Assembly: GCF_004310395.1 (NCBI RefSeq)
Contig: NZ_BFAX01000003.1
Location: 239,333 to 303,332, forward strand
Direction of reading: 5' to 3'
DNA from: Methanofervidicoccus abyssi
GTDB taxonomy: Archaea; AGJL01; Methanococci; Methanococcales; Methanococcaceae
DNA length: 64,000 nucleotides
The notes beneath the pieces are model-generated. The model was not told the DNA's origin, did no database searches, and saw only the letters and a list, made by a program, of their open reading frames with translations. Shown one piece after another: positions 45,671 through 64,000 of this stretch. The first letter of the stretch is position 1, and every line of letters begins with the position of its first letter. The translations under genes were made by a program, and so were the position numbers.

Positions 45671-48595
45671 GTGGTCAAAGTGTCTAATACAAAGAGACTT
45701 GTAGAGACTACGAAAATATATGAGGTCATTAATAAGATCAATGAGAAGTCTGGTAAGGAAAAGCAGGGTGGTGCTCGCCCTCCTCACTGGGAAATGGTCT
45801 TCTGGTGGACGAGGAAACCTTTGATAGGTGCAAGGGCAGTTATCGTTGCATCACTTTTGCCCGAACTTGTAGATATCAAAGATTTCAGGAGGATGATTCG
45901 TCTTGATGCAAATACACCGCATAGGGAACCTGTTTACATTCCCGAAAGCCTTAAGGGCTATTTTAATGAGATAAAGCTTCTTGATCCGTTTGCAGGCTTT
46001 GGCTCAATACCACTTGAAGCGATGAGGATGGGTCTGGATGTTACAGCTGTTGAGTTGTTGCCAACCGCTTACATTTTCCTTAAAGCTGTTTTGGAATACC
46101 CTGCGAAGTTTAGAGAAACTGTTGAGGCTGTAAAAGATAGAAGACGTGTGCTAATGAGCAGATTAATTTATGATGTCGAGAGATGGGGACAGTGGGTTAC
46201 TGAAAGGTTGAAAGAAGATGAAGATATAAGAGAGCTATACGATGAGGATGTAGCTGTTTACATAGGTAGCTGGGAGGTTAAGTGTCCGCATTGCAATAAA
46301 TGGACACCTGTCGTAGGAAACTGGTGGCTTGCGAGGGTAAAGGGTAACAGGGGCTATAAGAGGCTTGCATATATGGAACCAGTAAAGCAGGGAGATAGGA
46401 TAGAGATTAGAGTTGTTGATGTTAATAAGGAAGTTGGAAACGTTCAAACTGCTAAGGTAGATACAAAAAATGGAGTGATAGAGGTTAAAGGTAAGAAGTT
46501 TGTAGTCCCTAAGCCAAATATAGTAGCTAGAAGGAATGAGGCAAGATGTCTGCATTGCGGAAACGTGATTAAATACGTAGATGAGAGTGGAACTCATTAC
46601 GTTAGTAGAGGTAGTAGAAGAAACTTGGAATGGTATATAAAATGGGCTTTAAAGAAGTATAACGAAGGAGATGAGAGGTTTGCCAGGCAGAGGTTGCTTG
46701 TTAAGGTTAAGGTTGATAAAGAGCTTGTTTTCGAGCCGTGCAGCGATGAGGATAATTTAAAGCTTGAAAGGGCTAAGGAGAAGGTTAAGAAGTTGATTGA
46801 TGAAGGGGATGCGGATGTTCCATTAGAGGAAATTCCACAATATGACCCAAGAAGTATATGGGTTGTAAATTATGGATTTGTTAGATGGATGCACTTGTTT
46901 AATCCACGCCAGCTCCTCACCCTCGTCAAGCTGGTTAAGCTGATAAGAGAGGTCGGAAAGAGGGTTGAGAAGGAGAAGTTGGTTGAAGGCTGGAGTGAGG
47001 ATAAGGCTTTCAGTTATGCTGAGGCTATTGCTACTTATCTGGCTATTGCTTTGTGTAAATATGCGGATTTTCTTACTCTTTCAACAGCATATAACGTTGG
47101 TTTTCTTATAGTACAACATACCTTAGCTTTGAGAGGAATTGCCATGAATTGGAATTGGACAGATGCAAATCCATTTGCCAACATCACTGGCTCACTTATT
47201 CGGTCATTAAATAACTCTTTTAACGGCTTAGATTACATTGTCTCTTCGCTGAATTCAGCCACTCCTCACAATCAAGAAAAAGAAATCCAAATTAAAACAC
47301 TACTCGATGACGCCACAACCCTAAACAAACTCAACGAAAAGTTCGACATCATCGTAACAGATCCTCCATATGCTTACGATGTAGCTTACACAGAGCTCTC
47401 AGACTTCTACTACGTCTGGCTTAAGCGAGCTTTGAGCGATTCAGATGGCAAAAAACTCATTCCACGCTTCCATAAAGAAGCTTTCTTTAAGAAGGTAGGA
47501 GCAAAGCTTGTTGAAATCAAGACTCAATGGCAAGAGTTTGCGAAGAGGGAGATTTCAGAGAATCCAGGTAGATTTCTTGATGAAGAGAACAGAAGTGAAG
47601 TGGCAAGGAAGCACTTTGGAGAACTCTTCTCTCAAGCCCTCATTTCAATCAGAGAACATCTAAAAGAGGATGGAATAATCGCTCTTTACTACGCTCACAC
47701 ATCCTTTGAAGCGTGGGCGAATCTGATAGATGCTGTCAGGAAAGCTGGACTTCAGATCGTCAATACCTTCCCCCTCACGACTGAGTCACAGCAGAGCATC
47801 GTTAGGAGAGGCAAACTCTCCCTCGATACATCTATCGTAGTCGTTTGCAGGAGATTAACCGAAAAGAAAGAGGCTATGCTCACCGACATTTTACCAGAGC
47901 TCGAAAGAGAGACGAGGAAATACGCAGAATTCCTTGTTAGTAGAAACTTCGTCGGTGCCGACGTTCTGGTCGGGACTATGACTGGTGCGCTTAAGATCCT
48001 AACCAAATACTCCAGAATACTGACTCCCGCTGGAGAAATTTCCACTGTCAAGATTCTGGAAGAATACGTCTATCCTTACGTCGGTCAGGCTATAGCCTAC
48101 GCTTACAGCAGAAAGTCAGACGTATCTCCCATCCAAGACTCCAACGCTCTACTCTACACGCTTGCAAAGGTCTTGTTCGGTAGCAACGGAGTTAAGGCGA
48201 GAAAGATGGGAAGTGGAGAAATAGTCTTACTCTGCCTTTCGACCAAAGTCGAGAGAGCCAAAGCCATGCAGTTCTTCGATAGAAACAGGGAGGAATACAC
48301 GCTAAAGGAGATAAAGACGACGAATCCAAAAGAGCTAAGGAGGTTCCTAATTAGCAAAAAGATTAACCCAGACAATCCAATAATAAAGAATCCCGTCGAT
48401 TTCCTGCACCTCATGTGCTACTACTCCCTTCTCATGACTCCAAACGAGCTTAGGGAAAAATACAACGAACTATCCTACAAGTATCCGAAGGAAGCGGATG
48501 AGGCTGTTAAGATGGCATACGTGTTATACTCCCTTAAAGATCCTGAAGGAGAGTTGTGTAGAAGATTTTTGAATACCCTCAGGCTTGTGAAGTGA
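45671..48595 (+). CDS. DUF1156-family DNA adenine-type methyltransferase
   Basis: This 974-residue protein begins with a DUF1156 region (GGARPPHWEMVFWWTRKPL near residue 33). It has a SAM-binding motif LLDPFAGFGSIPLEAMRMG near 102 and an amino-methyltransferase catalytic motif VTDPPYAYDVAY near residue 562. Between them two Cys pairs (CPHC near 205, CLHC near 295) suggest a zinc ribbon. Such proteins occur with DUF499 ATPases and helicases in predicted antiviral loci, where they would mark self DNA. GTG 45671 or GTG 45680 may start it. Codon and base use change inside the gene: the second half is richer in C. It opens the defence island. Confidence 0.85.
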   Translation: MVKVSNTKRLVETTKIYEVINKINEKSGKEKQGGARPPHWEMVFWWTRKPLIGARAVIVASLLPELVDIKDFRRMIRLDANTPHREPVYIPESLKGYFNEIKLLDPFAGFGSIPLEAMRMGLDVTAVELLPTAYIFLKAVLEYPAKFRETVEAVKDRRRVLMSRLIYDVERWGQWVTERLKEDEDIRELYDEDVAVYIGSWEVKCPHCNKWTPVVGNWWLARVKGNRGYKRLAYMEPVKQGDRIEIRVVDVNKEVGNVQTAKVDTKNGVIEVKGKKFVVPKPNIVARRNEARCLHCGNVIKYVDESGTHYVSRGSRRNLEWYIKWALKKYNEGDERFARQRLLVKVKVDKELVFEPCSDEDNLKLERAKEKVKKLIDEGDADVPLEEIPQYDPRSIWVVNYGFVRWMHLFNPRQLLTLVKLVKLIREVGKRVEKEKLVEGWSEDKAFSYAEAIATYLAIALCKYADFLTLSTAYNVGFLIVQHTLALRGIAMNWNWTDANPFANITGSLIRSLNNSFNGLDYIVSSLNSATPHNQEKEIQIKTLLDDATTLNKLNEKFDIIVTDPPYAYDVAYTELSDFYYVWLKRALSDSDGKKLIPRFHKEAFFKKVGAKLVEIKTQWQEFAKREISENPGRFLDEENRSEVARKHFGELFSQALISIREHLKEDGIIALYYAHTSFEAWANLIDAVRKAGLQIVNTFPLTTESQQSIVRRGKLSLDTSIVVVCRRLTEKKEAMLTDILPELERETRKYAEFLVSRNFVGADVLVGTMTGALKILTKYSRILTPAGEISTVKILEEYVYPYVGQAIAYAYSRKSDVSPIQDSNALLYTLAKVLFGSNGVKARKMGSGEIVLLCLSTKVERAKAMQFFDRNREEYTLKEIKTTNPKELRRFLISKKINPDNPIIKNPVDFLHLMCYYSLLMTPNELREKYNELSYKYPKEADEAVKMAYVLYSLKDPEGELCRRFLNTLRLVK

Positions 48596-48952
48596 TATTA
48601 AGGAAGAGATTTTATGAGTTCATCAAAGAAAATAGGGAATTAGTTTTGTAGAGATAGAGGGTAAGTTTGGGAGTGGAAATGCAACGATAGAATTAAAAAA
48701 TAATATTATTATTATATTATTATAATTATTAATATTATTATACAATGGGGACTAAAGTATGATGTAGTTGATGCCATAATTGAGCTAATCAATGAGGAAA
48801 AAATCTACGCTCAGTCGACATCATCAGTAATCTATACTTTAGATGGTAAAGCTCTAAGATTACCTATTGCTAAAGCTCCTCCAAAAGAGGGGCATAAGGA
48901 ACTACACTGGTTTGCCCGTTGTATTAGATATTGAACCGCCCAAAGGAGGGAG
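48596..48952 (+). pseudogene. Decayed coding remnant between DUF1156 and DUF499 genes
   Basis: Coding-like scraps lie here in different frames: RFYEFIKENRELV then VEIEGKFGSGNATIELK, an AT-only stretch at 48693-48742, then about 60 residues (KYDVVDAIIELINEEKIYAQ through KAPPKEGHKELHWFARCIRY) ending at 48934 with no start codon. They may be parts of one lost gene. I do not recognise the family. The last 20 bp hold the strong ribosome binding site of the DUF499 gene. Confidence 0.4.
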
Positions 48953-48961
48953 GTGGTATTT

Positions 48962-51900
48962 ATGGGTATTAAAGCCCTCAAGATTAGAGAAGATATCCAG
49001 AAAGGAATCGATCCAGCTCCAAAGCTTGGAGAGGTGTTAAGCGGTAAAGCGGATAAGGTTTACACAGATGCAAAAGAGTTCTTCAGAAGAACGTACTTCT
49101 CCCAAAACCTAATTGATCTCCTAAAGAGAGTGGTTCGAGCTATAAAGGGAGAAGAGAGCAGTAGGATCATCACCCTCTATTCATTCTACGGCGGAGGTAA
49201 GACCCACTCCATATTAGCAATCTATCACGCTTTTAAGAATCCGGACGCTTTGAAAGATGAAGAAGTACTGAGAGATTACGATGAAGTTATCAAGCAAGAA
49301 ATCTGCAAGCTTGCAGATGAAATAAAGGAGATTTCAAAGGATTTGAAGACCATCATAGCCACTGGAGACGATACCCGTTTCTTCGGACATCCCACCGAAC
49401 CGATAGACATGCCACCCTACAAGATTCACACTCTTTGGGGCTACATAGCACACAACCTCGGCAAATATGGGCTGGTAGAGAACTACGACAAAAACCTTTC
49501 AATCCCACCTCAAAACAAGATCAGCGATCTGCTCAGCGGTGAAAAGGCAATATTCATCATCGATGAGCTGATAGATTATGCTCATTCCATGATACATTCT
49601 AAGAACGAATACGAGAAAGGATACGTCAAAAGCTTACCACAGTTTATAGAGTATTTTGCAAAAGCGATCAGAGCATCTGATTCGATTTTAATAATCTCAT
49701 TACCCGTTGAATTAAAGAAGACCCGGTCTGAAACGGGGTTTGAAACGGATTGGAGATACGATAGGGGCTTCGTGCAGTCAGTGTGGAACGCCCTTAAAGA
49801 TTTTGCTCTTCCAATTTCACCGCTTAGAACCGAAGGAGTAAAAGATGATGTCGTCGAAGTTCTAAAGAAGAGAATCTTCGAAAAAATCCCTGAAAACATC
49901 AAAATGTCCGCTCTTCAAAAGTTGAGAGAGAAAGTAGTATCATACGAAGAGCACTTTGTCGGTTATGAAGATTTCCTCAGAAAGTTTGAGAGAACATACC
50001 CATTCCATCCCGACTACCTCGAAATCCTTGAAAAGTTGATATCCAGTCTAAAGCTTCAAAAGACGAGAGATGCCCTCAAGATAACGATTGAAGTTGTAAA
50101 GAGCATCATAAACTCCGGAGAAGATTCAGAGTACATAACGGTATGGCACATCGATCCATCACTCGATTCTCTTAAGCCCATGCTTTTCAGAGATCTATAT
50201 GCAGACTACGAGATGGTTTACAGGAAAGAGGTTGAAGGTATATCTGGCTTTACAGAGCCTGAACTCGTTAAAATAACGTTAAGAACTGTATTTCTCTCAA
50301 CATACATACATGACAGTCCAATAAGAAGAGATGACTTTCCTGATAGGAAAAAGCTTGTAAGGATGGTTTACGAACCAAGAAAGTTCACTGAAAACAACTG
50401 GGAACCTACAGATGTGTTATCTGCCCTTGAAGCGGCATACAGTAGTGAGGAAATTACACACCTAATGGAATCTGAAGGCAGATATTGGTTCTGGAGACAT
50501 GCAAATGTAAAGGAGCACATCGAAAATAGGGCAAGAACGTTGCTTGAACATGAAGATGACAGAATATATAATAAGATAGAAGAATACCTAAAGCTCAGTG
50601 AACATGGTAAGCTGAGCGATAGGGGAGTTACTAAGAAAGTCGGTAGAAGAAAAGAAAGAGAGGATATAGTGCAATTCTTTGATAAAATCATTTATCTTAA
50701 GACTACCTACGACGAGAGAAAAGTTGAAGATGATAGATCTCTAAAACTCGTCGTATTTGTCAAAAAGGATTTGATGATCGACTTAAGAAAAGATATATTT
50801 GAAAACTACGAAGATTCTGAGAGAACGTATAAGAACACTGTCGTTGTCTTGATGCCAAGCGAAGAATACTACGATAAGATAAAGATACAAGCTGCTAGAC
50901 TTGTCGCATGCGATTTGGTTGAGAAAGAAGTTTCAAGCTTTTACGCGGAACATGGGAAGAGTGTCGTAAAAACACAAAAAGCTTTAATTGAAGATTTTAG
51001 AGGGACATACGAAAAAGACTTAATAGAGGCTATTGTAAAAGGATACACACTCGTTTACTATCCAAGAGAGGTTGATTATAAATTTGATGTTTGTGAAGCG
51101 TTAATCCAAAATCCTTCGTATCACCTTCCAACAGCGGTTTACATTACATTATCAAAGGCACCAATACTAAAGATTAGTGATGTTCTAACGTTTGAAGCTC
51201 TCGTAAAACACATAAAGGACGTGATGGGTGTAGATATAACTGAATCTGACAGAATCTACACGGTAGAGCAGATAATAGACTGGTTTAAGCAAAGAGCAGC
51301 GTTTCCAATGGTAAAAGATGAGGTAATTAAAAATGCTTTAAAGGAAGGTGTTAGGCTAAAGAAGATAGGAGTGCTTGACGGAAATGAAATATACTTCAAG
51401 AAAGTCCACAAAAATACCCCACCACTCAGCCAAGAAATAGATGAGGGTGAAATACCAGACACGTTAAAAGATGATGCTAAAGTTCTACCGAGGAGAAAAG
51501 CTGTAGAAATACAATATAAAATGCTCAAAGAAAAGGAAAAAGTACTGAGAAGATTAGATGTTGTAGAAAAGATATGGTATGAAATAAAAGCTGAAGACAG
51601 TGTTCTAAGACTTGAGGAACTTCCAACTATGGATGACTGGCACTACACCTTCGTTAATGGATTGATTGTAGAAAAAAGAGAAAAGCTGAAGTCTGGTATA
51701 ACTGTCGAAGTGTATCCCGGAACTGGAATAGAAAAAGATGCTGGGAAAGAGGTAAGAATTACAATTAAAGCAATACCTATAAATTTAGAGGTCGAAAAAG
51801 TCGAAGTATCTGTAAAATGCAATGATAAAGAAATTTTAAGTCAAGAAATGGAGAGAAAGGATGATAGATTTGAGAGTGTTTTATACGTCAATGCTCCCAA

Positions 51901-52366
51901 GATGGAAGGTGAAAAGGATAATTATATAGCTGTAGTTAAAGCATATACTCCAAATGGAGTATTTGAAAAATCTATAAGGTTTACGATAGAGGCAAAAGTA
52001 AAGAGAAAGACTGTTAAGTTAAGAGAGATTAATGAGAAACACATAGGAGCAAAGTTAATAAAAATATTAGATATTAAGGATTACAGTATTCTTTCTGATA
52101 TTGAAAATATACCTGAATTTAAAGAAGCAAAGGTTACTGGTAATCTCATTGTAAAAGTCAATGCAGGAGAGATTAATGTAAACTATAGTAATGTAAGTAT
52201 CGATGTAGCAGCGAACTCATCGAAAGAAATTGCAGATTATGGTTTAGAGTCCTCAGGAACATTCGAAGTAGAACCTAATGAGTCTTTTGAACTAAAAGAG
52301 CTAACAGTTAGAAAGCTTATGAGATTAAATGGAAAAGTAGAATTTTTACTTGGACTGGAGGAGTGA
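48962..52366 (+). CDS. DUF499 P-loop ATPase of a defence cassette
   Basis: This 1134-residue ATPase belongs to the DUF499 family. The P-loop SFYGGGKTHSILAIYHAF lies near residue 75. An acidic Walker-B-like FIIDELIDYAHSM lies near 200. The C-terminal 250 residues look like beta-rich domains (about 920-1130). Family members occur in predicted phage-defence loci with DUF1156 methyltransferases and SNF2 helicases, perhaps as motor or sensor. GGAGGGAGGTGG before ATG 48962 is unusually strong. The first third is C-rich with Archaeoglobus-like codon use and the last third is AT-rich. The next gene starts 4 bp after its stop. Confidence 0.85.
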   Translation: MGIKALKIREDIQKGIDPAPKLGEVLSGKADKVYTDAKEFFRRTYFSQNLIDLLKRVVRAIKGEESSRIITLYSFYGGGKTHSILAIYHAFKNPDALKDEEVLRDYDEVIKQEICKLADEIKEISKDLKTIIATGDDTRFFGHPTEPIDMPPYKIHTLWGYIAHNLGKYGLVENYDKNLSIPPQNKISDLLSGEKAIFIIDELIDYAHSMIHSKNEYEKGYVKSLPQFIEYFAKAIRASDSILIISLPVELKKTRSETGFETDWRYDRGFVQSVWNALKDFALPISPLRTEGVKDDVVEVLKKRIFEKIPENIKMSALQKLREKVVSYEEHFVGYEDFLRKFERTYPFHPDYLEILEKLISSLKLQKTRDALKITIEVVKSIINSGEDSEYITVWHIDPSLDSLKPMLFRDLYADYEMVYRKEVEGISGFTEPELVKITLRTVFLSTYIHDSPIRRDDFPDRKKLVRMVYEPRKFTENNWEPTDVLSALEAAYSSEEITHLMESEGRYWFWRHANVKEHIENRARTLLEHEDDRIYNKIEEYLKLSEHGKLSDRGVTKKVGRRKEREDIVQFFDKIIYLKTTYDERKVEDDRSLKLVVFVKKDLMIDLRKDIFENYEDSERTYKNTVVVLMPSEEYYDKIKIQAARLVACDLVEKEVSSFYAEHGKSVVKTQKALIEDFRGTYEKDLIEAIVKGYTLVYYPREVDYKFDVCEALIQNPSYHLPTAVYITLSKAPILKISDVLTFEALVKHIKDVMGVDITESDRIYTVEQIIDWFKQRAAFPMVKDEVIKNALKEGVRLKKIGVLDGNEIYFKKVHKNTPPLSQEIDEGEIPDTLKDDAKVLPRRKAVEIQYKMLKEKEKVLRRLDVVEKIWYEIKAEDSVLRLEELPTMDDWHYTFVNGLIVEKREKLKSGITVEVYPGTGIEKDAGKEVRITIKAIPINLEVEKVEVSVKCNDKEILSQEMERKDDRFESVLYVNAPKMEGEKDNYIAVVKAYTPNGVFEKSIRFTIEAKVKRKTVKLREINEKHIGAKLIKILDIKDYSILSDIENIPEFKEAKVTGNLIVKVNAGEINVNYSNVSIDVAANSSKEIADYGLESSGTFEVEPNESFELKELTVRKLMRLNGKVEFLLGLEE

Positions 52367-52369
52367 GAT

Positions 52370-52807
52370 ATGAAGACCATGGTAGCATCTTCTTCTATTA
52401 TTTTATACTTACCTCTTCAAAACACCAACGTGTACTTTGTAGTAAAGAAAAAGCACAAGGGGAAAGTCAGATACGTATTCTCGAAAGTTCCTGACAAAAA
52501 AGAGGATTATGCAACAGCTGCCATTACCTGCAGTTATCCAGATGTCGAAAGGTTTGCAAGAAGACTGAAGTTTGAAAAAGATGGGAATGTTTTTGTAACA
52601 GATAGCAGAGATGCTTTTCTGAGACTTATGCTCTTTACAGCAGTGAGAAGGGTTATAAGGAATGAAAAGAGAGCGGAAAAGCTTGCAGATATCGTTTACG
52701 ATCTCCCATATTTTGAACTCGTATTTTGGATAGATAAGATGAGAAATACTTCATGGTGGGAGATGGATAGAATCGCCAGAGCCTTTCTGATGGTATACAA
52801 CGTGTAA
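52370..52807 (+). CDS. Unknown small protein of the defence cassette
   Basis: This 145-residue protein was not recognised. It begins with a beta-rich half (SSIILYLPLQNTNVYFVVKK, HKGKVRYVFSKVPDKKED) and ends in helices (AVRRVIRNEKRAEKLADIVY, MDRIARAFLMVYNV). It has no membrane segment and only one cysteine. It sits tightly between the DUF499 ATPase (3-bp gap) and the helicase (start within 11 bp), so it is surely co-translated with them. In related loci a small protein, sometimes DUF3780, occupies this slot; homology to it cannot be judged by eye. Confidence 0.75.
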   Translation: MKTMVASSSIILYLPLQNTNVYFVVKKKHKGKVRYVFSKVPDKKEDYATAAITCSYPDVERFARRLKFEKDGNVFVTDSRDAFLRLMLFTAVRRVIRNEKRAEKLADIVYDLPYFELVFWIDKMRNTSWWEMDRIARAFLMVYNV

Positions 52808-52817
52808 GGTGTGCTTC

Positions 52818-55646
52818 ATGTTTGTGAAAAATCTCATATCACGTTTCACTTTGGAATTATTAGAAAATGATCCCGCTTTCTTCTTCTATTCTCTTCAGCC
52901 TAGCATGCCTGGATATAAACCCGTAAAAATGCTCAAACATCAAGCTGCACTACTCTGGAGGATAGTTCCTGTAAATCCTGTTAGATGTCTCATAGGTGAT
53001 GAAATAGGACTTGGTAAAACTATAGAGGCTGCAGTAATTGCAAGATATTTAGAAAAAAGGGGTGTGAAAAGAGTACTCTTACTACTTCCAAGAATCTTGA
53101 TGAGGCAGTGGAAAGAAGAGCTAATGAGAGTAGGAATAGCGGAAGTATACATAAGAGAGCTTGAAAGATACACTTTCGATTACTTGAGGAGTGCTGGCTT
53201 TCCTGAAGGATATTATATTGCGTCGATCGATACTGTAAAGAAAGAAGATTTTAAGTCAAAAATAAGAGACATTGAGTGGGATCTTATCATCGTTGACGAG
53301 GCCCATAATATTGGTGGAGAGACTTTAAGGGACAGTCTTATCAGAGATCTTAAGGCAAAGAATATCCTTTTCCTCTCTGCTACACCACACAGAGGTAATG
53401 CAGCCCGTTATATAGGTATGCTTTCCCATCTTGATCCAAGCTTGAAGGCGATGGCAACAAAGCTTGATAACGTGGAATTTTATAGAGCTACACATAATTG
53501 TCTTGTCCATAGAAGGACAAAAGAAGTCGTGAATGAGCTTGAGGGTAGAGAAGTGTTTCCAAAGTGTCATATAAGAGCGGTCGTGGCTAAAGCAAGCATG
53601 GATGAAAAAGAATTTGCGGATGGTATAGTTGACTTCTTGAGAGAGCTAATCAGAGAGGTTAAGAAAAGTAGCGAAGATTTAGAGAAAACTCCAGAGGGAT
53701 TGCTGGCAGTTATCTTAAGAAAGAGGGTCTCTTCAAGCCCAAGAGCTGCAATAAAAACCCTTAAGACGATTATAGAAAACTTTGGGGCTAAAATCACTGG
53801 GAATGTTTCAAGTGATCATTCAAGAGTATCGAGGATTTTTGGAACTTCCTATGATGAGATGGATATTGAAGACGATGCTGATGAAAGACTTAATGAAATA
53901 GCAGCTAAGTATGCCGGAATTTTTGAGGAAAGACATATTAGAAGATTGCAGGAGTTTATAAATTTAGCTCGGAGAATAGAAGAACACGATAGTAAGCTCG
54001 AAACTCTGAGAGATATAATTGAATATCACATTGAGAAAGGTAGTAAGGTGATAGTTTTCACTGAATATAAAGATACCCTCGACTACCTTGAAGAGAAGCT
54101 TAAAGATCTTAACCCACTGACAATAAGTGGTGCCAACAGAGACGAATGGGGCTGCATTCTTGCTGATTTTGAGAGTAAAGAAAGAAGTCTTCTCATAGCA
54201 ACAGATGTAGCATCAGAAGGTCTCAATTTGCAGATTGCAAACGTCGTCGTAAACTATGAATCCCCATGGACACCGATAAAGCTCGAACAGAGGATAGGAA
54301 GAGTTTGGAGACTTGGGCAAGAAAAAGAAGTGTTTGTATATAACCTCTTCCTTGCAACGAGAGCAGATTTAGATATTGCTAACGCTCTTTATGTAAAGCT
54401 TCTTAACATACATGAAGCTTTGAGTGATACAAGAGCAATACTCGGAGAGAAGATTCATGCCGCGTATGAGAAGGATGTTGGTAGCGTGGATCAGATATTC
54501 GAACCAGTTTCTGAGCTTGGCGAGGTTAAAATAAAAGGTAGGAGAAGAAAGATAACAGAGTATAGGATAGCGCTTTCGCAGATCACTGGAGAATTTGACG
54601 AACTTATGGAACTTATAGCGAGGCAGATTGCAGATCTTAAAGATGAGATATTTAGAAAGAGAATATATCCGACAGAGATTGCAGAATTTATAAAAGAACA
54701 ACTTCAAAGACTTGGTGTAGGAGATTCAGAGAAGATAGAAAAGTTACTATTAGACGTGGTAAATTTGTGTTCTCTAGAAGTTAGGAATGTTCATGAAATT
54801 TATGAACTGCTGAAGACGATTGATGGAAGAATACCAGAAATACTTGTTATATTGGACGACAAAGAGGGCGTTGACTATATAGTGATTGCTACCGTAAAGT
54901 TTGCTGAGCATGAGATGAAGATTCCGCTCGTAGTCTTTGGAGATGATATTAAGATAGGTATAGATGCTTTGAAGTACATTATTGAACTTGTGAAAAGATC
55001 AATAGTCCCGGATAATATCTATTATGAAAAGCAAATAAGGCCTGGAATAGGTATTAAGAGCATGATCAAAATTAAGCTTGAAGAAAGATTTAACTCTCTC
55101 TTACGTCCTTACAGGGAATACTCTTCAAAATATGGGGGACTTTGGAAAGATGTTGGTATAAAAAATATAAGACTCGAAATTTTGACAACAGTCTTAAGAC
55201 TACCTTCTACACCTGGAAATCCAGAAGAGTACGATGAAAGTTTTAGGAAGAAAGTCGAAATGGCTGCTGTGGAGTTTGTAAAAAGATATGAAGAAAGAGA
55301 GGGTAGGGTAATAGAAGACAGGCAAGATACGATGAAGTATGACTTCTATACATATCCAAAAAATGAGAAGGATGTTCAGGAGGGTATGAGGAGAGGTGAA
55401 AGATATATAGAAGTAAAGGGGCATGCTAGGGGCGCTGTGTTCTCAATACTTCCAAAAGGCGAGTTTGAGTTCGCAAAGGGTAGGGGAGATAAATACTGGC
55501 TTTACGTTGTGTATAACGCTTTGAGTGATAATCCCATACTAGTTGCCATTAGGGATCCTATAAGCAAGCTTGCTATCGAGAAAGAAAAAAGGACTAAGGT
55601 TATTAAGGAAGAAGTCTATAAAGTTTATTTCAAACCCAGGATTTAA
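52818..55646 (+). CDS. SNF2/HepA-type superfamily 2 helicase with C-terminal DUF3883-like nuclease domain
   Basis: This 942-residue protein combines two parts. The helicase has GDEIGLGKTIEAAVIARYL near residue 60, DEAH-type box IIVDEAHNIGGETL near 160, LFLSATPHRG near 190, and the C-lobe LIATDVASEGLNLQIANVVV and QRIGRVWRLGQEKEV near 460-500. The C-terminus (about 840-930) contains RYIEVKGHARGAVFSILP and LYVVYNALSDNP. This resembles DUF3883, a predicted PD-(D/E)xK-like nuclease with an E-x-K core. It could be the effector of the DUF1156-DUF499 cassette. GGTG before ATG 52818 sets the start, 10 bp after the small gene. Confidence 0.85.
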   Translation: MFVKNLISRFTLELLENDPAFFFYSLQPSMPGYKPVKMLKHQAALLWRIVPVNPVRCLIGDEIGLGKTIEAAVIARYLEKRGVKRVLLLLPRILMRQWKEELMRVGIAEVYIRELERYTFDYLRSAGFPEGYYIASIDTVKKEDFKSKIRDIEWDLIIVDEAHNIGGETLRDSLIRDLKAKNILFLSATPHRGNAARYIGMLSHLDPSLKAMATKLDNVEFYRATHNCLVHRRTKEVVNELEGREVFPKCHIRAVVAKASMDEKEFADGIVDFLRELIREVKKSSEDLEKTPEGLLAVILRKRVSSSPRAAIKTLKTIIENFGAKITGNVSSDHSRVSRIFGTSYDEMDIEDDADERLNEIAAKYAGIFEERHIRRLQEFINLARRIEEHDSKLETLRDIIEYHIEKGSKVIVFTEYKDTLDYLEEKLKDLNPLTISGANRDEWGCILADFESKERSLLIATDVASEGLNLQIANVVVNYESPWTPIKLEQRIGRVWRLGQEKEVFVYNLFLATRADLDIANALYVKLLNIHEALSDTRAILGEKIHAAYEKDVGSVDQIFEPVSELGEVKIKGRRRKITEYRIALSQITGEFDELMELIARQIADLKDEIFRKRIYPTEIAEFIKEQLQRLGVGDSEKIEKLLLDVVNLCSLEVRNVHEIYELLKTIDGRIPEILVILDDKEGVDYIVIATVKFAEHEMKIPLVVFGDDIKIGIDALKYIIELVKRSIVPDNIYYEKQIRPGIGIKSMIKIKLEERFNSLLRPYREYSSKYGGLWKDVGIKNIRLEILTTVLRLPSTPGNPEEYDESFRKKVEMAAVEFVKRYEEREGRVIEDRQDTMKYDFYTYPKNEKDVQEGMRRGERYIEVKGHARGAVFSILPKGEFEFAKGRGDKYWLYVVYNALSDNPILVAIRDPISKLAIEKEKRTKVIKEEVYKVYFKPRI

Positions 55647-55808: not shown

Positions 55809-56591
55809 ATGAGAAGTCTGAATGAAATTTTGGAAATCTTCTCACAAATTCCTTTGGAAGTCTGGAACAAAATTGTTCAGGAAGAACCAGAATGGAAGAA
55901 TATGTGAGAATTTCTTGAAAAATATGGATTCAGCAGATTTGCAGTTCTCATGACAGCAGCCGGATTAAACGACTTTCAGCTCAAAGGAAAGGCCGAGGTA
56001 GCATACTGGCCAAAAATAAGAGAATTGCTGGAGTCCTGTAAACCTCCTGAAAGCCTGTCCGACCTAAAATTGATTCTTTCAGAATTTTACAGCAAAGAAA
56101 GACTGCCAGATCTAAAACTGAAGAGACTGAGTCGGTTCCTTTCAAGCAGACTCGCTGAATGGTTATGGGAATCAAGTGCAAAGGATGTTGCTGAGAATTT
56201 CGTCAAGATTTGGTATGAGCTTGCTACAACAATGAAACAGAATAGAAATGCAAAAACAATTGTCTTTGCGATGAAATGCCTCGGGATTGCACTTCTCATG
56301 GCTGGGGAGACTAATTTCAGTTTCGAGAGTATTCCCATTCCTGTGGATTACAGAGTCAGAGAATTCACGAGAAGACTCGGTATAGCCGTGAATACTGACG
56401 AGGACGTGCGAAGATTCTGGAACAAAGTTCTGGAGGGATTGAGAAGAAATGGTAAGAGAATAAACATGATCCACCTTGATTCTCTGATATGGCAGATTGG
56501 CGTGCTGAGAAATTCTGAGATAGTGGATTATTTTTCGAGATTAGGTTTGAAGGAAGTTGGAGAGAGAATATCGGAAGTGTTGAGAAGATGA
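55809..56591 (+). pseudogene. AGOG-type 8-oxoguanine DNA glycosylase/lyase interrupted by an in-frame UGA
   Basis: AGOG removes 8-oxoguanine and nicks the DNA. The frame from ATG 55809 (behind GGTGAT) matches the full family length, 260 codons. TGA at 55905-55907 (codon 33, context EEPEWKNM-stop-EFLEKYG) interrupts it. After the stop the frame is clean: GLNDFQLKGKAEVAYW, KTIVFAMKCLGIAL with a candidate catalytic Lys (codon 156), IPIPVDYRV with a candidate Asp (codon 180), and HLDSLIWQIG. An internal ATG at 55950 could make a 213-residue protein lacking the N-terminus. Trp TGG to TGA is the simplest cause. The stop overlaps the DUF6884-like start by ATGA. Confidence 0.8.
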
Positions 56592-56656
56592 GGCTATGTA
56601 TAGTCCCGTGTGGAAGTTTAAAAATCTGGCACAGAAATCCTGATACAGGACCCACA
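56588..56656 (+). pseudogene. 5' part of a DUF6884-like gene split by an inserted element
   Basis: ATG 56588 overlaps the glycosylase stop (ATGA). It begins MRLCIVPCGSLKIW and RNPDTGPT, typical of the N-terminus of small DUF6884-type proteins (a cysteine-containing PCGSxKIW start). The match ends at 56656. The rest of the gene resumes in frame at 58597 with KAKDVYIGPFAKAC. Joined, the two parts give 149 residues, which fits the family. Confidence 0.75.
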
Positions 56657-56993
56657 AGTTAAATAAAAGTTGTTGCAGGTCCCCAGGTACCTTAACTATG
56701 GTCCAATTACCCAACTTACTCAACTCTAAGAGGGAGTGTTTAGCCAGTTTGTTTAAAATAGCATAAAATTGCTTTCTTTTATTTTTGGCAGTTAGTTTAT
56801 TCTTTACTCTATTGTAAATATAAGCCGTAAAAATAGGGTTTCTTGGATAGTCTATAAACTCGGTATAAACGTAGCTAAGGATGGAGTACTCTATAGAGTG
56901 GTTTATATTGCTGATATTAAGTCTTTCTATGAGTAAAGTTTTTATATATTCAGTGACAATCTCATATATGGAGGGGTTCTTTAAGCCAGGCAT
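56657..56993 (-). pseudogene. N-terminal part of the element's Rep gene (separated by integration)
   Basis: ATG 56993 follows GGAGGT at 57007-57002. About 112 element-encoded residues start MPGLKNPSIYEIVTEYIKTL. They contain a mostly helical region rich in Lys, Asn and Tyr (YPRNPIFTAYIYNRVKNKLT, KQFYAILNKLAKHSLLELSK) that resembles a DNA-binding winged helix. The frame then continues past the junction through antisense glycosylase/DUF6884 sequence to 56541; those last 38 residues are not native. Joined to the part starting at 58596 it makes a full Rep. Confidence 0.7.
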
Positions 56994-57007
56994 ATTATTA
57001 ACACCTC

Positions 57008-57190
57008 CAACCTACCCAACCTACTGACAATTTCATATACGGAGGGGTCTTTCATACTATTAACACCTCCGGTAGTCTCGTATACGGTGGGGTTCTTTAG
57101 TGTCAGCATACTATTAACACCTCCAACTTGCTATAAGCCGCAAAAATAGGATTGTTGGGATAGTCTATAAACTCGGTATAAACATACCAT
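57008..57190 (-). repeat. Degenerate tandem copies of the rep 5' end
   Basis: The stretch upstream of the rep start repeats pieces of the gene. At 57024-57070 and 57071-57124 there are two more copies of the block GGAGGTGTTAATAGTATG followed by a KxPxVYE-coding sequence. At 57131-57186 there is a 55-bp copy of 56817-56873, which codes for YTEFIDYP. They are interrupted and cannot make a Rep. They look like remnants of earlier duplications, and they present three ribosome-binding-site/ATG units in a row. Confidence 0.75.
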
Positions 57191-57193
57191 TAG

Positions 57194-57216
57194 GGAAGGG
57201 GGATTTTCCCCCTTCC
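57194..57216. promoter_or_regulatory. Strong GC hairpin in the plasmid non-coding region
   Basis: A perfect 10-bp stem (GGAAGGGGGA / TCCCCCTTCC) with a TTT loop is followed by TTTT on the plus strand. In this AT-rich context it stands out. It could be the double- or single-strand origin hairpin of rolling-circle replication, or a terminator. Confidence 0.6.
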
Positions 57217-57296
57217 TTTTATCACTGTTTATTTTGTTTTAGTATATATATTTTTTTTTTATTCCCAGGGTATTTTACTAATTTTTTACATTTAAC

Positions 57297-57516
57297 CAAA
57301 TGCAAAAAATTCACTTAAGTGAATAAAACACCTACCTACTGGGGGTTATAGGGTATAGGAGTTTGCATTTATTAAAGTGCAAAAAATTCACTTAAGCAAA
57401 TAAATTGCTTAAGCAATTTTATTGCAAAATTAGTAAAGTGCAATAAAATTGCTTAAGCAATATTTAGTAAAGTGCAATATAAACACCTACCTACGGGAGG
57501 TTATAGAGTATAAGAG
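57297..57516. repeat. Iteron-like and palindromic region, candidate replication origin
   Basis: Palindromes centred on CTTAAG are TTCACTTAAGTGAA at 57310-57323, AAATTGCTTAAGCAATTT at 57402-57419 and ATTGCTTAAGCAAT at 57448-57461. AAAGTGCAA recurs at 57374, 57435 and 57469. A 35-bp direct repeat beginning AAACACCTACCTAC occurs at 57326 and 57481, flanking the palindromes. Such arrays upstream of or beside rep genes usually bind Rep. The region lies immediately 3' of the rep C-terminal part. Confidence 0.65.
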
Positions 57517-57526
57517 AATATCTTAA

Positions 57527-58596
57527 CTACCATACAAACCGCACACTATAAACAGGCTTCCCAGTATCAAAGGAGGAAACCCTGAAGTAATCAGGATAAT
57601 AATCACAATAATTCCGCCGTCTAAATCTAAATTTATCTTTGATATACTTTAAAATATCCGAAATACTGGAAAATTCAGGGAAAACAGATAAATCTATACT
57701 GGTTAAAAACTCATACTTAGGTATTTTAACTTTTATGCCTTTGTTAGTAGTCAAATCCCTGGAATATGTGAAAAACCTAAAGTTATAAACCCAGTAAAAC
57801 ATTAACTCTCTATCTTCATAAAACGCCTTTTTTAAGTATTTTGTAAGGTAATCACTTATATTTTTAGCTTTGCAGTTTTTAGGTTTATAATTTAGCCAAG
57901 TAAAGGTATTTTTTACCCTTTTGAGTGCATAAATATAAACTATCTTACCCATTCCATACCTGTCCCAGGTTTCACTAATCCACCTTTGAGATATTAACCA
58001 CTTCCAACCTTTACCCTTACCCCTACTATTACTGGCTTTTACCCTTATTTTGTCAGTAAATACCAGTAAATGGATATGAGGAACCCCCGCCTTAGTAAAT
58101 TCAAGGACTTTAATATAAGTTTTTATTCCGAATTTTCTCTTTAGCAAGTCCATAAATTTTTTAAAATTATAATACAACCCTTTTTTTATGGTTTTGTAAT
58201 TGTTTTTATTAGGATCTACCGTCAAAGTTATGAAAAAAGCATACTTATAGGATTTAGCCGCTAAGGTTATTTTTTCCTTAAATTCCTCTATTCTTTTTCT
58301 TAATTTGCTAGTGGAGTTAAATCTGGTAGTATAATCTAAAATAAGGAGATCATCTTCCTTTAAATCTTCAATACTAACCCCTTTTTTCTTCAAAATAATT
58401 TTAATGTCTTCACATTTGCTTAAATAGTAATTGAAAAGCATATAAATAAATTCTTTCTCAAAAAAGGTTAATCTACTTTTATCTTTGATGTAATTGATAG
58501 CAATTTTTTTAATATCGCTTAAAGTCAGGTCTCGTTTTTCTAAATCTTCATAAAACTGATTTAAGAAAAGTTCGAAATTTTGCACTGTATGGATCA
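57527..58596 (-). CDS. Rolling-circle replication initiator Rep (HUH endonuclease), C-terminal part
   Basis: About 355 residues carry the three HUH-Rep motifs: motif 1 FFITLTVDP, motif 2 GVPHIHLLVF (the metal-binding HIH), and motif 3 DYLTKYLKK with two tyrosines spaced YxxKY. In the open frame that extends to 58744 these lie at residues 170-178, 220-229 and 298-306. The first 50 codons of that longer frame are antisense to the DUF6884-like gene and are not native. Such proteins nick the plus strand at the origin and stay attached through tyrosine. The C-terminus (RFRRRNYCDYYPDYFRVSSF) is basic and aromatic. The true N-terminal part is at 56993-56657. Confidence 0.82.
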
Positions 58597-58977
58597 AAGG
58601 CAAAGGACGTTTACATTGGTCCCTTTGCAAAAGCATGTATTGATTATGCTGAGAGATTTTATCCCGGAAGATATGTGATTCTATCTGCCAAATACGGTTT
58701 TCTCTTTCCGGATGAACTGATTCCCGGAAATTATAACGTGACATTCAACAATCCAAAAACAAACCCGATAGGGGTTGAAGAACTGAGAAAGCAGGCAGAG
58801 CATAAAGGATTAATGAAATATGACGAGATAGTTGTTGTTGCGGGTAGCAATTACGTGAAAATAGTCAGAAAGGTGTTCGCAGTAAAGAAGATCATAACTC
58901 CGCTCAAGGGGCTTGGGGGAATGGGTCCAATGATATCTGCTATAAGGAGAGCCATAAGAGATGAAAGGGAGCTTTAA
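58597..58977 (+). pseudogene. 3' part of the split DUF6884-like gene
   Basis: The frame resumes KAKDVYIGPFAKACIDYAER then YPGRYVILSAKYGFLFPDEL, PGNYNVTFNNP and ends near RRAIRDEREL. YILSAKYGLL-type cores are typical of DUF6884/YaaA-like proteins. An ATG at 58675 could start a 100-residue product, but the PCGSxKIW N-terminus is 1.9 kb away at 56588. The gene is therefore broken by the plasmid insertion. It and the glycosylase gene were probably an operon. Confidence 0.75.
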
Positions 58978-59794: not shown

Positions 59795-61048
59795 TCACCT
59801 AGCCTTATCATGCCTAAACACCTCATCCAAAATACTTTCCTTTAATTCTTCAAGTTGAATTATTTGATTTTGGATTTTTTCTTTTAAAGTTTTGATTTTT
59901 TGGTAAACATTATCAAGGTATTGGGCTATTTCTTTTTGTTTTTCAAGGTCTGGTTGGTTGTTGTGGAAAGGGAGGGGGATTTTTAGGTTTTTGAGAAAAT
60001 TTTTATTTACATGTGGTGTTGCAGTATATTTACTTTTATTAAGATGTTCAAAGTAAGTATTCAAAAACCAAAACACATACTTTTTACTAAGGTCATGCTC
60101 CTTGATTTCAAGTTTTGCCATGGTTGATACCAATACTCCTTCTATATCACAAAAAAACAATTCTCCAGAACGGGATCCATCGGCTATTATGACCAAGTCT
60201 CCTTTTTGTACTCTTAAAATTTTATTTTCTTCAATTGGAATATATTCTTTAATTTTTTTCTCTCTAAAATAATCCAATGTTAAATAAGGTAATGCGTTTT
60301 TTTGTTTTTGTTTTAGGACTTCTTTAGGTTTTTTTCCTTTTAATAGATCAATTTTGTCTAAAAACCTCACCTCTCTCCACTCCTCACCCTCCTTCGGCTT
60401 AAAGGCATGCTCCAAAACACTTTCCCATAGTTCATCCAAAAACTCAAGTTCTTTCTTTTTCTTTTCCAGAATTCTGTCAATTTTTTCAAAGTTTGTTTCT
60501 ATGTATTCAACGATTTTCTTTTGCGTTTCTAAATCTGGCTTGCCGTTGCGGAAGGGGATGGGGATTTTTAGGTTTTTAAGGAAAGTTAAATTAACATTAT
60601 TTTGAGCTCCTCCCCTTCCCCTTTCTTTAAGTTCTTGTCCAAATTTAAGCAATACCCAATAAAGATATTTATTATCATATTCTTTTTTAGGTATAATTCC
60701 TGCAATAGCTTGATTTGTGGTAGCTTCTATATTAAGTATACCAACATGACCAATTGTAGCAAAAATAGTAAATAGTATAGTGCCTTTTGGCAATAATTTT
60801 GCTGAAGAATTGTTTAAACCTTTTTCAGTTATTTTTTCTTCAGTATCATTCACATATCCTTCTTCTGGGATATCTTTTATTTTAACCCATGGTATTGTTC
60901 CATTCTCCCAATATTCTTTGTTTTTTCTACTAGGTGTTCCTCCACTTTTAATCTCTTTTGCAATCTCCCCCAACCTCACCTCTTTCCACTCAACTCCCTC
61001 AACTTCCCAAGGTTTCTTGGCTTTTATCAAGTTTTTTACATCACTCAT
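59795..61048 (-). CDS. hsdS: Type I restriction-modification specificity subunit
   Basis: HsdS recognises the split DNA target of a type I system. The 417-residue protein has two target-recognition domains, each followed by a conserved helix. The first half ends KNLKIPIPFRNGKPDLETQK, the second KNLKIPLPFHNNQPDLEKQK. The two repeats share an 18-bp identical DNA block (59975-59992 and 60560-60577). The start ATG overlaps the end of hsdM by 4 bp (ATGA). The last residues are DEVFRHDKAR. The recognition sequence cannot be deduced. Confidence 0.93.
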   Translation of the reverse strand: MSDVKNLIKAKKPWEVEGVEWKEVRLGEIAKEIKSGGTPSRKNKEYWENGTIPWVKIKDIPEEGYVNDTEEKITEKGLNNSSAKLLPKGTILFTIFATIGHVGILNIEATTNQAIAGIIPKKEYDNKYLYWVLLKFGQELKERGRGGAQNNVNLTFLKNLKIPIPFRNGKPDLETQKKIVEYIETNFEKIDRILEKKKKELEFLDELWESVLEHAFKPKEGEEWREVRFLDKIDLLKGKKPKEVLKQKQKNALPYLTLDYFREKKIKEYIPIEENKILRVQKGDLVIIADGSRSGELFFCDIEGVLVSTMAKLEIKEHDLSKKYVFWFLNTYFEHLNKSKYTATPHVNKNFLKNLKIPLPFHNNQPDLEKQKEIAQYLDNVYQKIKTLKEKIQNQIIQLEELKESILDEVFRHDKAR

Positions 61049-62511
61049 CTTAACACCCCTCTCAACTCCTCAAGTAATTTCATAACCTCCCTTTCCTCTC
61101 TCAAAACATCTTCTAAAATCTCCGTTGATGGTCTGTATTCCTTTTTCTTAAACTTGTTGGGATTTCTTGGCGTAAGCTCATAGGTTTCCTTATCTATTTC
61201 ATCAATCTTAACAATCCAGGAGTTTTCGCTTATTCCCCTGTTTTTCCATTTTTCATAACAATCTAATAAATATTCATCTTTTATAGGATCTGTTTTAGTA
61301 TATTGTTTTTCTACCCATTTTCCATAACGTGTTTTTACCATACCCAACGGGTGTTTATGTTCATAATACCATATCTCTTCTGTTGGTCCTGTTTTATCAA
61401 AGAACAGCAAATCAGTTTTTACAGGAGTTTTCCCGGAGGCTATAAATACCCCTTTTGGTAAAGAGATAATAGTATGAACATTATAATTCTCAAGAAGTTC
61501 CTTTCTAACTCTTACAAATGGTCCAGTTGTATTGGACAAAACACCTTCCGGAACAACTATGCCAACCCTCCCACCCCGCTTTATTTTCCTCATTACATAC
61601 TGTAGAGCCATTAACTCAGTTTTGGAACTTTTAACAGGAAAATTAACCTTAAACCTCTTATCAAACTTGCCTCCAAATGGAGGATTTGTGAGGATAACAT
61701 CAACCCTATCCTTTTCCTGGATTTTTCTGACATCCTCAGCAAATGTATCCACTTTGTAAATGTGAGATGTCGGTAAATTATGCAAAAGAAGGTTCATTAT
61801 TCCAATAAGATAAGGAACGTCCTTCTTTTCTTGTCCATAAAACATGTTATACAAAATTTTGGTTTCTTTTGTGGTAAAAACTTCCTTATTTCTCAATATA
61901 TGATTATAACTCTCAATCAAGAACCCGGCAGAGCCTAAAAATGGATCCAGAATCTTTTCGCCAAGCTTAGGATTAACAATCTTAACCATCAACCTGATTA
62001 TGGGCCTGGGAGTGTAATACTCCCCAGCATATTTACCCATCTCCCCAATCTCTGGCAAAAGCTCTTCATAAAGAGTAGAAATAATGTAAATATCTTCTCT
62101 TGTTCTGAACTCGAGTTCATCAAGGAGCAGAGCAACTTCTCTCAGCTTATAACCATCTCTCAGGAAATTCTGAATTTCTTTACCGCTGAAAATTGTGGCG
62201 ATTAACTCTTTCTCCCCATCTCCATCGAGTTTTGAAAGAAAAGGAAAAAGCTCATTGTTAATAAAGTTTATAAGTTCTTCACTTCTCCAATCCTTATGAA
62301 CCCAGTCTTTCCACCGGTATGGAGAAGGTATATTCCTTTGGTATGTTTCTCCCTTCAACTTAGACTTTAACTCCCTTTCATCTTCAAGATCATCGTAAAG
62401 CTTTAAGAAAAGCATCCAGGATAGTTGAATTATGTAGTTTACAGAGGCGATCTCATTCCTCAGTAAATCGCATGCCTGTTTGAACTTTGATTTTAATGTT
62501 TGCCTATCCAT
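61045..62511 (-). CDS. hsdM: Type I restriction-modification DNA methyltransferase subunit
   Basis: HsdM methylates adenine in the host target. The 488-residue N6-adenine methyltransferase has an N-terminal helical domain, then GEYYTPRPIIRLMVKIVNPK near residue 162. SAM motif I ILDPFLGSAGFLIESY lies near 190 and the catalytic NPPFGGKFD near 278. GRVGIVVPEGVL is near 312. It overlaps hsdS by 4 bp and meets hsdR at its start, so the three are one operon transcribed leftward. Confidence 0.95.
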   Translation of the reverse strand: MDRQTLKSKFKQACDLLRNEIASVNYIIQLSWMLFLKLYDDLEDERELKSKLKGETYQRNIPSPYRWKDWVHKDWRSEELINFINNELFPFLSKLDGDGEKELIATIFSGKEIQNFLRDGYKLREVALLLDELEFRTREDIYIISTLYEELLPEIGEMGKYAGEYYTPRPIIRLMVKIVNPKLGEKILDPFLGSAGFLIESYNHILRNKEVFTTKETKILYNMFYGQEKKDVPYLIGIMNLLLHNLPTSHIYKVDTFAEDVRKIQEKDRVDVILTNPPFGGKFDKRFKVNFPVKSSKTELMALQYVMRKIKRGGRVGIVVPEGVLSNTTGPFVRVRKELLENYNVHTIISLPKGVFIASGKTPVKTDLLFFDKTGPTEEIWYYEHKHPLGMVKTRYGKWVEKQYTKTDPIKDEYLLDCYEKWKNRGISENSWIVKIDEIDKETYELTPRNPNKFKKKEYRPSTEILEDVLREEREVMKLLEELRGVLR

Positions 62512-64000
62512 TATCCAACACCTCCCGACTCATAAAGACCTCGAGAAATACTTTCAAGGGTACGAATGAGGTTGTCTATACCACCAAAAGAATCTATGAT
62601 CTCTTTCAGTTTGCCAATCTTCTGGATATCAGGTGATTCTAAGGCTTCAGGTGAAATCTCCTCAATACCGCCTATCTTGTATTTTTCTATGAGGTTTAGT
62701 ACAACTTTCTTTGCAGTTTCATTGAAAGAGTTTATAATTTGTTGTTTCTTGTTCAATAATGCTTGAGCTCTGTCGTCTCTACTCAAAATTGGGGCATCAA
62801 AGGCAACATGAGCAATAATATCAAAGGCGTCTGCATCAGGTCTATCAAGTAATTGGGCTATTAACTCAGGATTTATACTCCTTGCCTTTAAATCTTCCAA
62901 AAATCTTTTTCTTTTCTCTTTGTTTATCCAGATTTTCCTTAAATCGTCCAACGTAAGAACTTTTTTTCTAACATTTTCCCTCGCATATTCAATATATTTT
63001 GCTTTATTGAGTTTTTTACCCTCAACCTCAACATATAATTCCTCCTCAATGTAAACATTAATTCCCTTAACTACAATCTTGCCTTCCTTTGGTTTTTTCT
63101 TCTTTAACTCAACTACAACAGCAATTTTATCCTTGAAAGGTATAGGATCAACGCTTACCTCTTTTGTTTTGTAGTTCTTTGCCTCAACTTTTACCCTTAC
63201 AGGAGAATGGGGACAACCATCAATAATAAACTCCCCATTCTCATTTGTTCTTGCTGGTTTAACCATGTTAACGCCTAATTTTGCTGTTATCCTTGCATTT
63301 GAAATAGGAGTTCCATCCTCGCTATCCACAACCTTCCCTTTTATGAAGAAATCAAATGGACCTTCAGGCATATCAGGTATATATTCTTCAGGAGGCAAAT
63401 CCCATGGATCCAAAAGTCGGGTGGCGTCTACAAAATCTATTATCCTGAAAAAGAATTTGCCAGCATCCTCACTTATCCTACTTCCTCTACCTATGATTTG
63501 CTTGAACAATACCTTTGATGCAATGGGTTTCATGAAAACTATGTTTTTTACAGGTGGAATATCTACACCCGTGCTTAGTAGATCTACTGTTACGGCAATA
63601 ACAGGTACTTGAGATTCCGGATCTGCCATTTTTTCAGCTAACTCTATAGCATTTGGTTCTTCGTCAACAATCCTTACCACGAAATCATCTGCATTCATTC
63701 CAGTTGAAGCGATTTCAGAAGCTAATTCATTCTGTAAAATCTTTACAACATCCAGAGCATGTTCTTTGGTTACACAAAATACAATAGTTTTCTCTGTAGG
63801 ACCATAAATCTTCAATATCTCAGCAAGTTTCTTTGTCATAGCCTCTGTTCTATCTGGTAAAGTTATAACCTTTTCAAACTCACCTACGGAATAGAATTCC
63901 TTAACTTCCACATCTTCGGGAGCTTCAATAACAGCACCTTCGCTTGCTACATCAGTAAGAGATATCCCTCCTTCTTTATCAACGTTTATATAAATCTTGT
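62511..64000 (-). CDS. hsdR: Type I restriction enzyme motor/nuclease subunit, C-terminal part (cut by window edge)
   Basis: The frame is open to the right edge, so only the last 496 residues are seen. The second helicase lobe shows TIVFCVTKEHALDVVKIL, STGVDIPPVKNIVFMKP and KQIIGRGSRIS. After it comes an unusual stretch, FFIKGKVVDSEDGTPISNAR through GEFIIDGCPHSPVRVKVEAK, that looks like a carboxypeptidase-regulatory/transthyretin-like beta domain. An EcoEI-type C-terminal region (LDDLRKIWINKEKRKRFLED, GGIDNLIRTLESISRGLYES) ends the protein. The nuclease domain and first helicase lobe lie outside the window. Confidence 0.9.
   Translation of the reverse strand, partial: KIYINVDKEGGISLTDVASEGAVIEAPEDVEVKEFYSVGEFEKVITLPDRTEAMTKKLAEILKIYGPTEKTIVFCVTKEHALDVVKILQNELASEIASTGMNADDFVVRIVDEEPNAIELAEKMADPESQVPVIAVTVDLLSTGVDIPPVKNIVFMKPIASKVLFKQIIGRGSRISEDAGKFFFRIIDFVDATRLLDPWDLPPEEYIPDMPEGPFDFFIKGKVVDSEDGTPISNARITAKLGVNMVKPARTNENGEFIIDGCPHSPVRVKVEAKNYKTKEVSVDPIPFKDKIAVVVELKKKKPKEGKIVVKGINVYIEEELYVEVEGKKLNKAKYIEYARENVRKKVLTLDDLRKIWINKEKRKRFLEDLKARSINPELIAQLLDRPDADAFDIIAHVAFDAPILSRDDRAQALLNKKQQIINSFNETAKKVVLNLIEKYKIGGIEEISPEALESPDIQKIGKLKEIIDSFGGIDNLIRTLESISRGLYESGGVG

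Follow-up and report, generated by a model that had tools for sequence, protein, structure and literature searches.

A pTP2-like element in Methanofervidicoccus abyssi is split within rep at a presumed replication nick and was probably integrated by its own HUH Rep

In the archaeon Methanofervidicoccus abyssi, a DUF6884 gene is interrupted by a small element whose rep gene lies in two pieces, one at each end. The point at which the circle was opened looks like a replication nick and lies inside rep, and we consider it likely that a plasmid of the pTP2 family integrated at its origin by means of its own Y2-type HUH Rep, in a manner resembling IS91 and Helitrons, and split rep in doing so. The element was found in a 64,000-nucleotide stretch of contig NZ_BFAX01000003.1, the whole of which we call the window; the genome (G000; 1.31 Mb, 99.67% complete) was assembled with only the integrated form of the element.

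Joining the host flanks without the 1,940-bp insert gave a 450-nt frame (149 aa plus stop). The rejoined protein matched Pfam DUF6884 (PF21818) over residues 21–133, across the junction, with an E-value of 8.6e-14 and 52.3 bits (cut-off 30), and alignments with bacterial DUF6884 proteins covered 88–97% of its length. This bears out an earlier note on the same DNA, which had claimed that a 1,940-bp insert splits a DUF6884-like gene; the boundaries given there, 56588–56656 and 58597–58977, held for the split itself, and the ends were refined to 56588–56654 and 58595–58977 (Table 1). The 3-bp ambiguity at the ends, CAA, can be placed by means of the nick motif and two congener copies, and the element spans 56655–58594 when the cut is counted at that motif. 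On the rep strand this core is TTG, which appears to equal the 3′ side of the presumed nick, and the shared core would be only 3 bp because of the nick motif. Restoration of the host gene is exact, with neither base loss nor filler at the joints. Integration at a tRNA gene or through a long-core attachment site was rejected because no tRNA gene is present within the 64-kb window and the core is 3 bp.

The element is flanked on one side by an Hma-like cluster, comprising a DUF1156 methylase, a DUF499 ATPase and an SNF2 helicase, and on the other by a type I restriction-modification locus. The interrupted gene is within a defence island, with the Hma-like side at 45671–55646 and the restriction-modification side at 59795–63911. 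Just upstream of the DUF6884 gene, an AGOG-type DNA glycosylase gene (PF09171; 55809–56591) has an in-frame TGA at 55905–55907; because the frame before and after this TGA fits one protein, either the gene is disrupted or that base is in error.

Table 1. Features of the interrupted gene and the integrated element, in window coordinates
Feature	Position	Strand	Basis
DUF6884 host gene, 5′ part	56588..56654	+	joined frame, PF21818 match
Whole integrated element (1,940 bp; pTP2-like, rolling-circle type), open at presumed nick	56655..58594	-	sequence comparison
Element 3′ end on rep strand, ...TTTAACTTG^, 3′ side of presumed nick	56655..56663	-	end comparison
rep 5′ part, 113-codon N-terminal domain (ATG up to presumed nick)	56655..56993	-	circular frame
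Non-coding palindromic repeats TTCACTTAAGTGAA, TTGCTTAAGCAA, with TGCAAAA-type flanks	57292..57461	.	repeat comparison
rep 3′ part, linker and Y2-type HUH nuclease	57527..58594	-	circular frame, Pfam, motifs
Element 5′ end on rep strand, ^ATCCATACAGTG, 5′ side of presumed nick and internal start codon	58583..58594	-	end comparison
Possible GTG start in rep 3′ part	58585-58583	-	would give 352 aa
Target triplet CAA (TTG on rep strand)	58595-58597	+	right-hand CAA
DUF6884 host gene, 3′ part, starting with target triplet CAA	58595..58977	+	joined frame, PF21818

Closed into a circle, the insert has one continuous open frame on its minus strand, 468 codons long when counted from ATG; recomputed from the closed insert, its make-up is the 112 + 1 + 355 codons that had been proposed. 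The right-hand part carries the three HUH motifs previously assigned to it (FITLT, HIHLLVF and Y246-LTK-Y250), and the HIH and the YxxxY tyrosines (Y246, Y250) are invariant among five proteins compared. PF23343 (REP_ORF2-G2P) is the best-scoring family for the nuclease part and is matched above its cut-off, with Helitron_like_N at 21.4 bits, under a cut-off of 28.9. The N-terminal domain is tentatively presumed, from its layout, to be a winged helix; a Pfam search with the N-domains gave no reliable match, and an AlphaFold2 model of the domain alone was set aside for its mean pLDDT of 54.5. The window N-domain is weakly colinear with the N-domains of pTP2 and pleolipoviruses (hhalign P 0.006, probability 6%). 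The palindromic repeats in the non-coding part may serve as binding sites for Rep or as single-strand origins. Stretches of the rep 5′ region, from its N-domain coding sequence and its leader, recur in the non-coding part, at 56819–56873 / 57132–57186 and, as a second pair, at 56960–57011 / 57076–57127.

On the rep strand, the opening point reads TTTAACTTG^ATCC and the joined ends read TTTATTTAACTTG^ATCCATACAGTGCAAAA, with TTTATTTAACTTGATCCATACAG as the sequence spanning the presumed nick. The homologous opening base is identical in three separate copies (the window and two congeners, G001 and G004) and in a 122-bp solo 5′ end at C3:353502–353623 of G000. The split appears to fall inside rep because the nick motif sits there, and the proposal that the circle was opened within its own rep gene gains from this coincidence with a conserved RCR-type motif. 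In the window, G004, G001 and C3:353 copies alike, the fourth codon past the presumed nick is a start codon (GTG or ATG), from which a shortened, HUH-only protein could be made. Among four DNA foldings tested, a clear hairpin at the nick was seen in G001 only. In the joined G001 circle (L036 176–184 plus L035 from 3606), the nick motif is looped out by a perfect 7-bp hairpin, TGCTTAA-CTTGA-TTAAGCA, with a stem similar to the TTGCTTAAGCAA palindromes of the window element.

The G004 copy is 3.39 kb long, lies between the same two ends, ^ATAAGTATAGTGCAAAA and CTTAACTTG^, and is adjoined by SepSecS-like and homoaconitase-type genes; its rep N-part is decayed. This copy also has a 36-bp repeat array of about 11 copies (L022 4320–4879) and, separating rep from the N-domain remnant, an additional ORF of 169 aa. 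The description of the element as having one gene is right for the window copy; the G004 copy has at least one further ORF. The ends of the G001 copy lie on different contigs, with ^ATTAAGCACATGCAAAA close to where one contig stops and CTTAACTTG^ close to where another begins. They join in frame across the final stretch of the N-domain; the N-part is frameshifted and extends past the contig end, and neither congener copy has a whole rep frame. A single intergenic region of G000, without the element, matches the two G001 flanks, one of them at only 76% over 119 bp. Comparison with empty sites resolves the exact base in the window only, the G001 site not being fixable and G004 being too diverged. 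The solo 5′ end in G000, belonging to a second copy, is 93% identical to the 5′ end of the element, halts at the same base and is preceded by GATTCACTTG; it is sharply bounded on both sides and may stem from an insertion that aborted with one end in place, or be what a deletion left behind. An older remnant of the element lies near C2:177.4 kb of G000.

The inserted AT is preceded by CCTTTG in the window, TTATCTTG in G001, TTCACTTG at C3:353 and TTTTTTTA in G004. The target thus ends in TTG for three of the four insertions, and in TTA for G004, where it may have mutated since or where a different target may have been used. TTG begins at 1.6% of window positions, and the chance of at least three TTG targets in four is about 2e-5 with the cases taken as independent. 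The target loci are unrelated to each other, sharing a core of 3–4 bases, and do not represent one attachment site.

Continuous N-domain–HUH genes are present in G020 (477 aa), G316 (455 aa), G242 (464 aa) and Methanomassiliicoccaceae UBA370, so that the search for unbroken homologues of the 468-residue frame, which the earlier note had proposed, returned proteins of 455–477 aa. The fused rep frame is probably the ancestral layout. A chance in-frame joining of two ORFs was discarded because three copies share the breakpoint and continuous homologues exist. Among free replicons, the nearest one found was pTP2 of Thermococcus prieurii, whose HUH Rep is matched at 2e-24 over 219 residues; N-domain and HUH follow in the same order, and the path between them shifts frame in the deposited sequence. 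A tandem repeat in that deposited sequence was not recovered by later work (PMC5988781). The pTP2 nick motif is present twice (322 and 525), about 200 bp apart, because this repeat contains it. The pTP2-like Reps are a recognised cluster that includes pleolipoviruses (PMC6668415), and a 2018 paper described chromosomal homologues in methanogens as suspected integrated elements, with no synteny found (PMC5988781). Our scan of genome contigs for Rep relatives gave a single locus. Viral contigs scanned with four Rep queries gave no relative, nor did the DUF6884 query, and no chromosomal pTP2-type relative was found in 94 Thermococcaceae genomes, a set without a positive control.

The motif ACTTGA[TC] occurs at the N-domain/HUH linker in pTP2, UBA370, G316 and, among haloarchaeal pleolipoviruses, HRPV1, HRPV2 and Halfgib1. 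It is missing at the linker in two of the nine reps examined (G242 and G020 C2), and we therefore do not claim that it is universal. Where it is in frame, the residue preceding Leu is N, Y, H or D, precisely the four residues coded by NAC, and UBA370 has identical motif bases in a different reading frame; because of these two observations, selection at the linker seems to act on DNA rather than on protein. When synonymous codons were shuffled within each gene, the motif fell at the exact place with P 0.012–0.085, and it holds the sole TTG Leu codon of HRPV2 (1/60) and of G316 (1/41). This evidence comes mostly from a few small families, the three viral genes are mutually related, and the motif was picked after the window and pTP2 had been inspected. 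The Halfgib1 rep (L067, about 1050–1065) has two overlapping nick-like motifs at the linker, CTACTTGACTTGAT.

From sequence comparison, we infer the motif to be the nick and Rep to be the enzyme that cuts there and that, rather than host repair, joins the ends; nick-and-join as modelled for IS91 and Helitrons is the most economical account. The donor would be the circle of a small pTP2-family rolling-circle plasmid that has no integrase gene. Rep would nick it at ACTTG^A inside rep, between the N-terminal and nuclease domains, and would remain attached to the 5′ AT end after the cut. This end would then be handed to a 3′-OH where the minus strand of the DUF6884 gene has a target ending in TTG, one unit length would be displaced, and the CTTG end would be joined on the far side of that target. 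The product would be a full circle opened at its own nick, its N-domain and its nuclease part lying at opposite ends. With a circular donor, one site would serve as both origin and terminus, and because the nick lies within its gene, Rep probably doubled as integrase.

Rep might instead only cut, with host microhomology-mediated repair joining the ends to a chromosomal break via TTG. We regard this as rather unlikely: the overlap is just 3–4 bases, G004 lacks TTG, and the copies are few and old, all of which would suit repair, but both ends are base-exact in three copies, where trimming would be expected in some, and the window host gene is restored with nothing lost or filled in. Site-specific integration of the circle by a recombinase acting in trans from another element would account for the fixed breakpoint, and the enzyme could have been lost later; yet the unrelated targets, the 3–4-base core and the lack of a tRNA in the window speak against it. 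So does the search for tyrosine recombinases (PF00589), which had no match in G000 (99.67% complete) and was positive in 14 of 14 control genomes; this result covers the tyrosine type in the element's own genome and agrees with the earlier statement that no tyrosine integrase is present. We give such a recombinase hardly any credence.

The start codon past the 5′ end in four copies, and element ends that act like transposon termini, would also fit a chromosomal IS91/Helitron-like transposon with two separate genes, in which the joined frame is coincidental and no plasmid was involved. In several of the continuous N-domain–HUH homologues, however, the motif falls within the gene itself; the N-domain frame runs up to the nick without meeting a stop codon; and the ends join in frame in the window and partly in G001. 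With pTP2, the closest named relative, being a free plasmid, and with no multicopy family among the genomes searched, we consider a two-gene transposon very unlikely. Integration of a plasmid by its own Rep remains our preferred reading.

The element resembles pTP2 in its homologous HUH Rep, its size of about 2 kb, its order of N-domain then HUH, and ACTTG^AT at the same linker, and differs in that pTP2 is a free plasmid. A further parallel is phiX174, whose origin CAACTTG^ATA lies within gene A (annotated at the A after the cut) and in which an internal start yields a short form, A*. The gene A protein also has YxxxY tyrosines. Unlike the element, phiX174 is a lytic phage that does not integrate, and its A* start is about 190 nt past the nick, versus 10–12 nt for the start codon of the element. 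In SSV, integration breaks up a gene that the circle restores. For SNJ2, likewise, a gene or operon is disrupted on integration and made whole again in the circle (PMC13107129), but SSV and SNJ2 both use tyrosine recombinases and long attachment sites; the analogy to SSV integrases that had been drawn for the element thus fits the outcome, a gene split by integration, and not the mechanism, which would be nick-and-join rather than tyrosine recombination. In IS91 and Helitrons, a Y2 HUH enzyme cuts one strand, which is carried and joined at a short target motif, and circles can act as donors (PMC4778049, PMC5714925). The element is like them in its Y2 HUH enzyme and may be like them in joining at a short target motif, which does not imply membership of their protein families; they are chromosomal transposons whose ori and ter ends are distinct and whose transposase gene is intact, whereas in the element a single site forms both ends and the gene is split. 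AAV Rep78/68 and the TrwC relaxase are HUH enzymes that integrate DNA at origin-like sites (PMC5714925), but they belong to other protein families and the event leaves their rep gene unsplit.

A bolder reading, which we regard as doubtful, also in view of the decayed N-part of G004, is that the replication nick is the attachment site of a reversible switch, an integrase-free counterpart of SSV and SNJ2 in which an HUH-only Rep excises the element, and that a nick inside rep is ancestral to pTP2 plasmids and alphapleolipoviruses. If this were true, a short Rep, as A* is to A in phiX174, would excise the element and full Rep would be regained. In the literature searched, which excluded the 2013 description of pTP2, we found neither a nick within rep reported for this family nor an account of rep being split by integration at the nick site, and we provisionally take both to be new. 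The entry route of the pTP2-related rep-like genes of methanogens (PMC5988781) was previously unexplained, and a concrete mechanism can now be proposed for it, together with a candidate nick site for pTP2-like and alphapleolipovirus Reps. Such a mechanism would connect the replication of a plasmid with rolling-circle transposition, and one enzyme plus a few oligonucleotides would suffice to test the connection.
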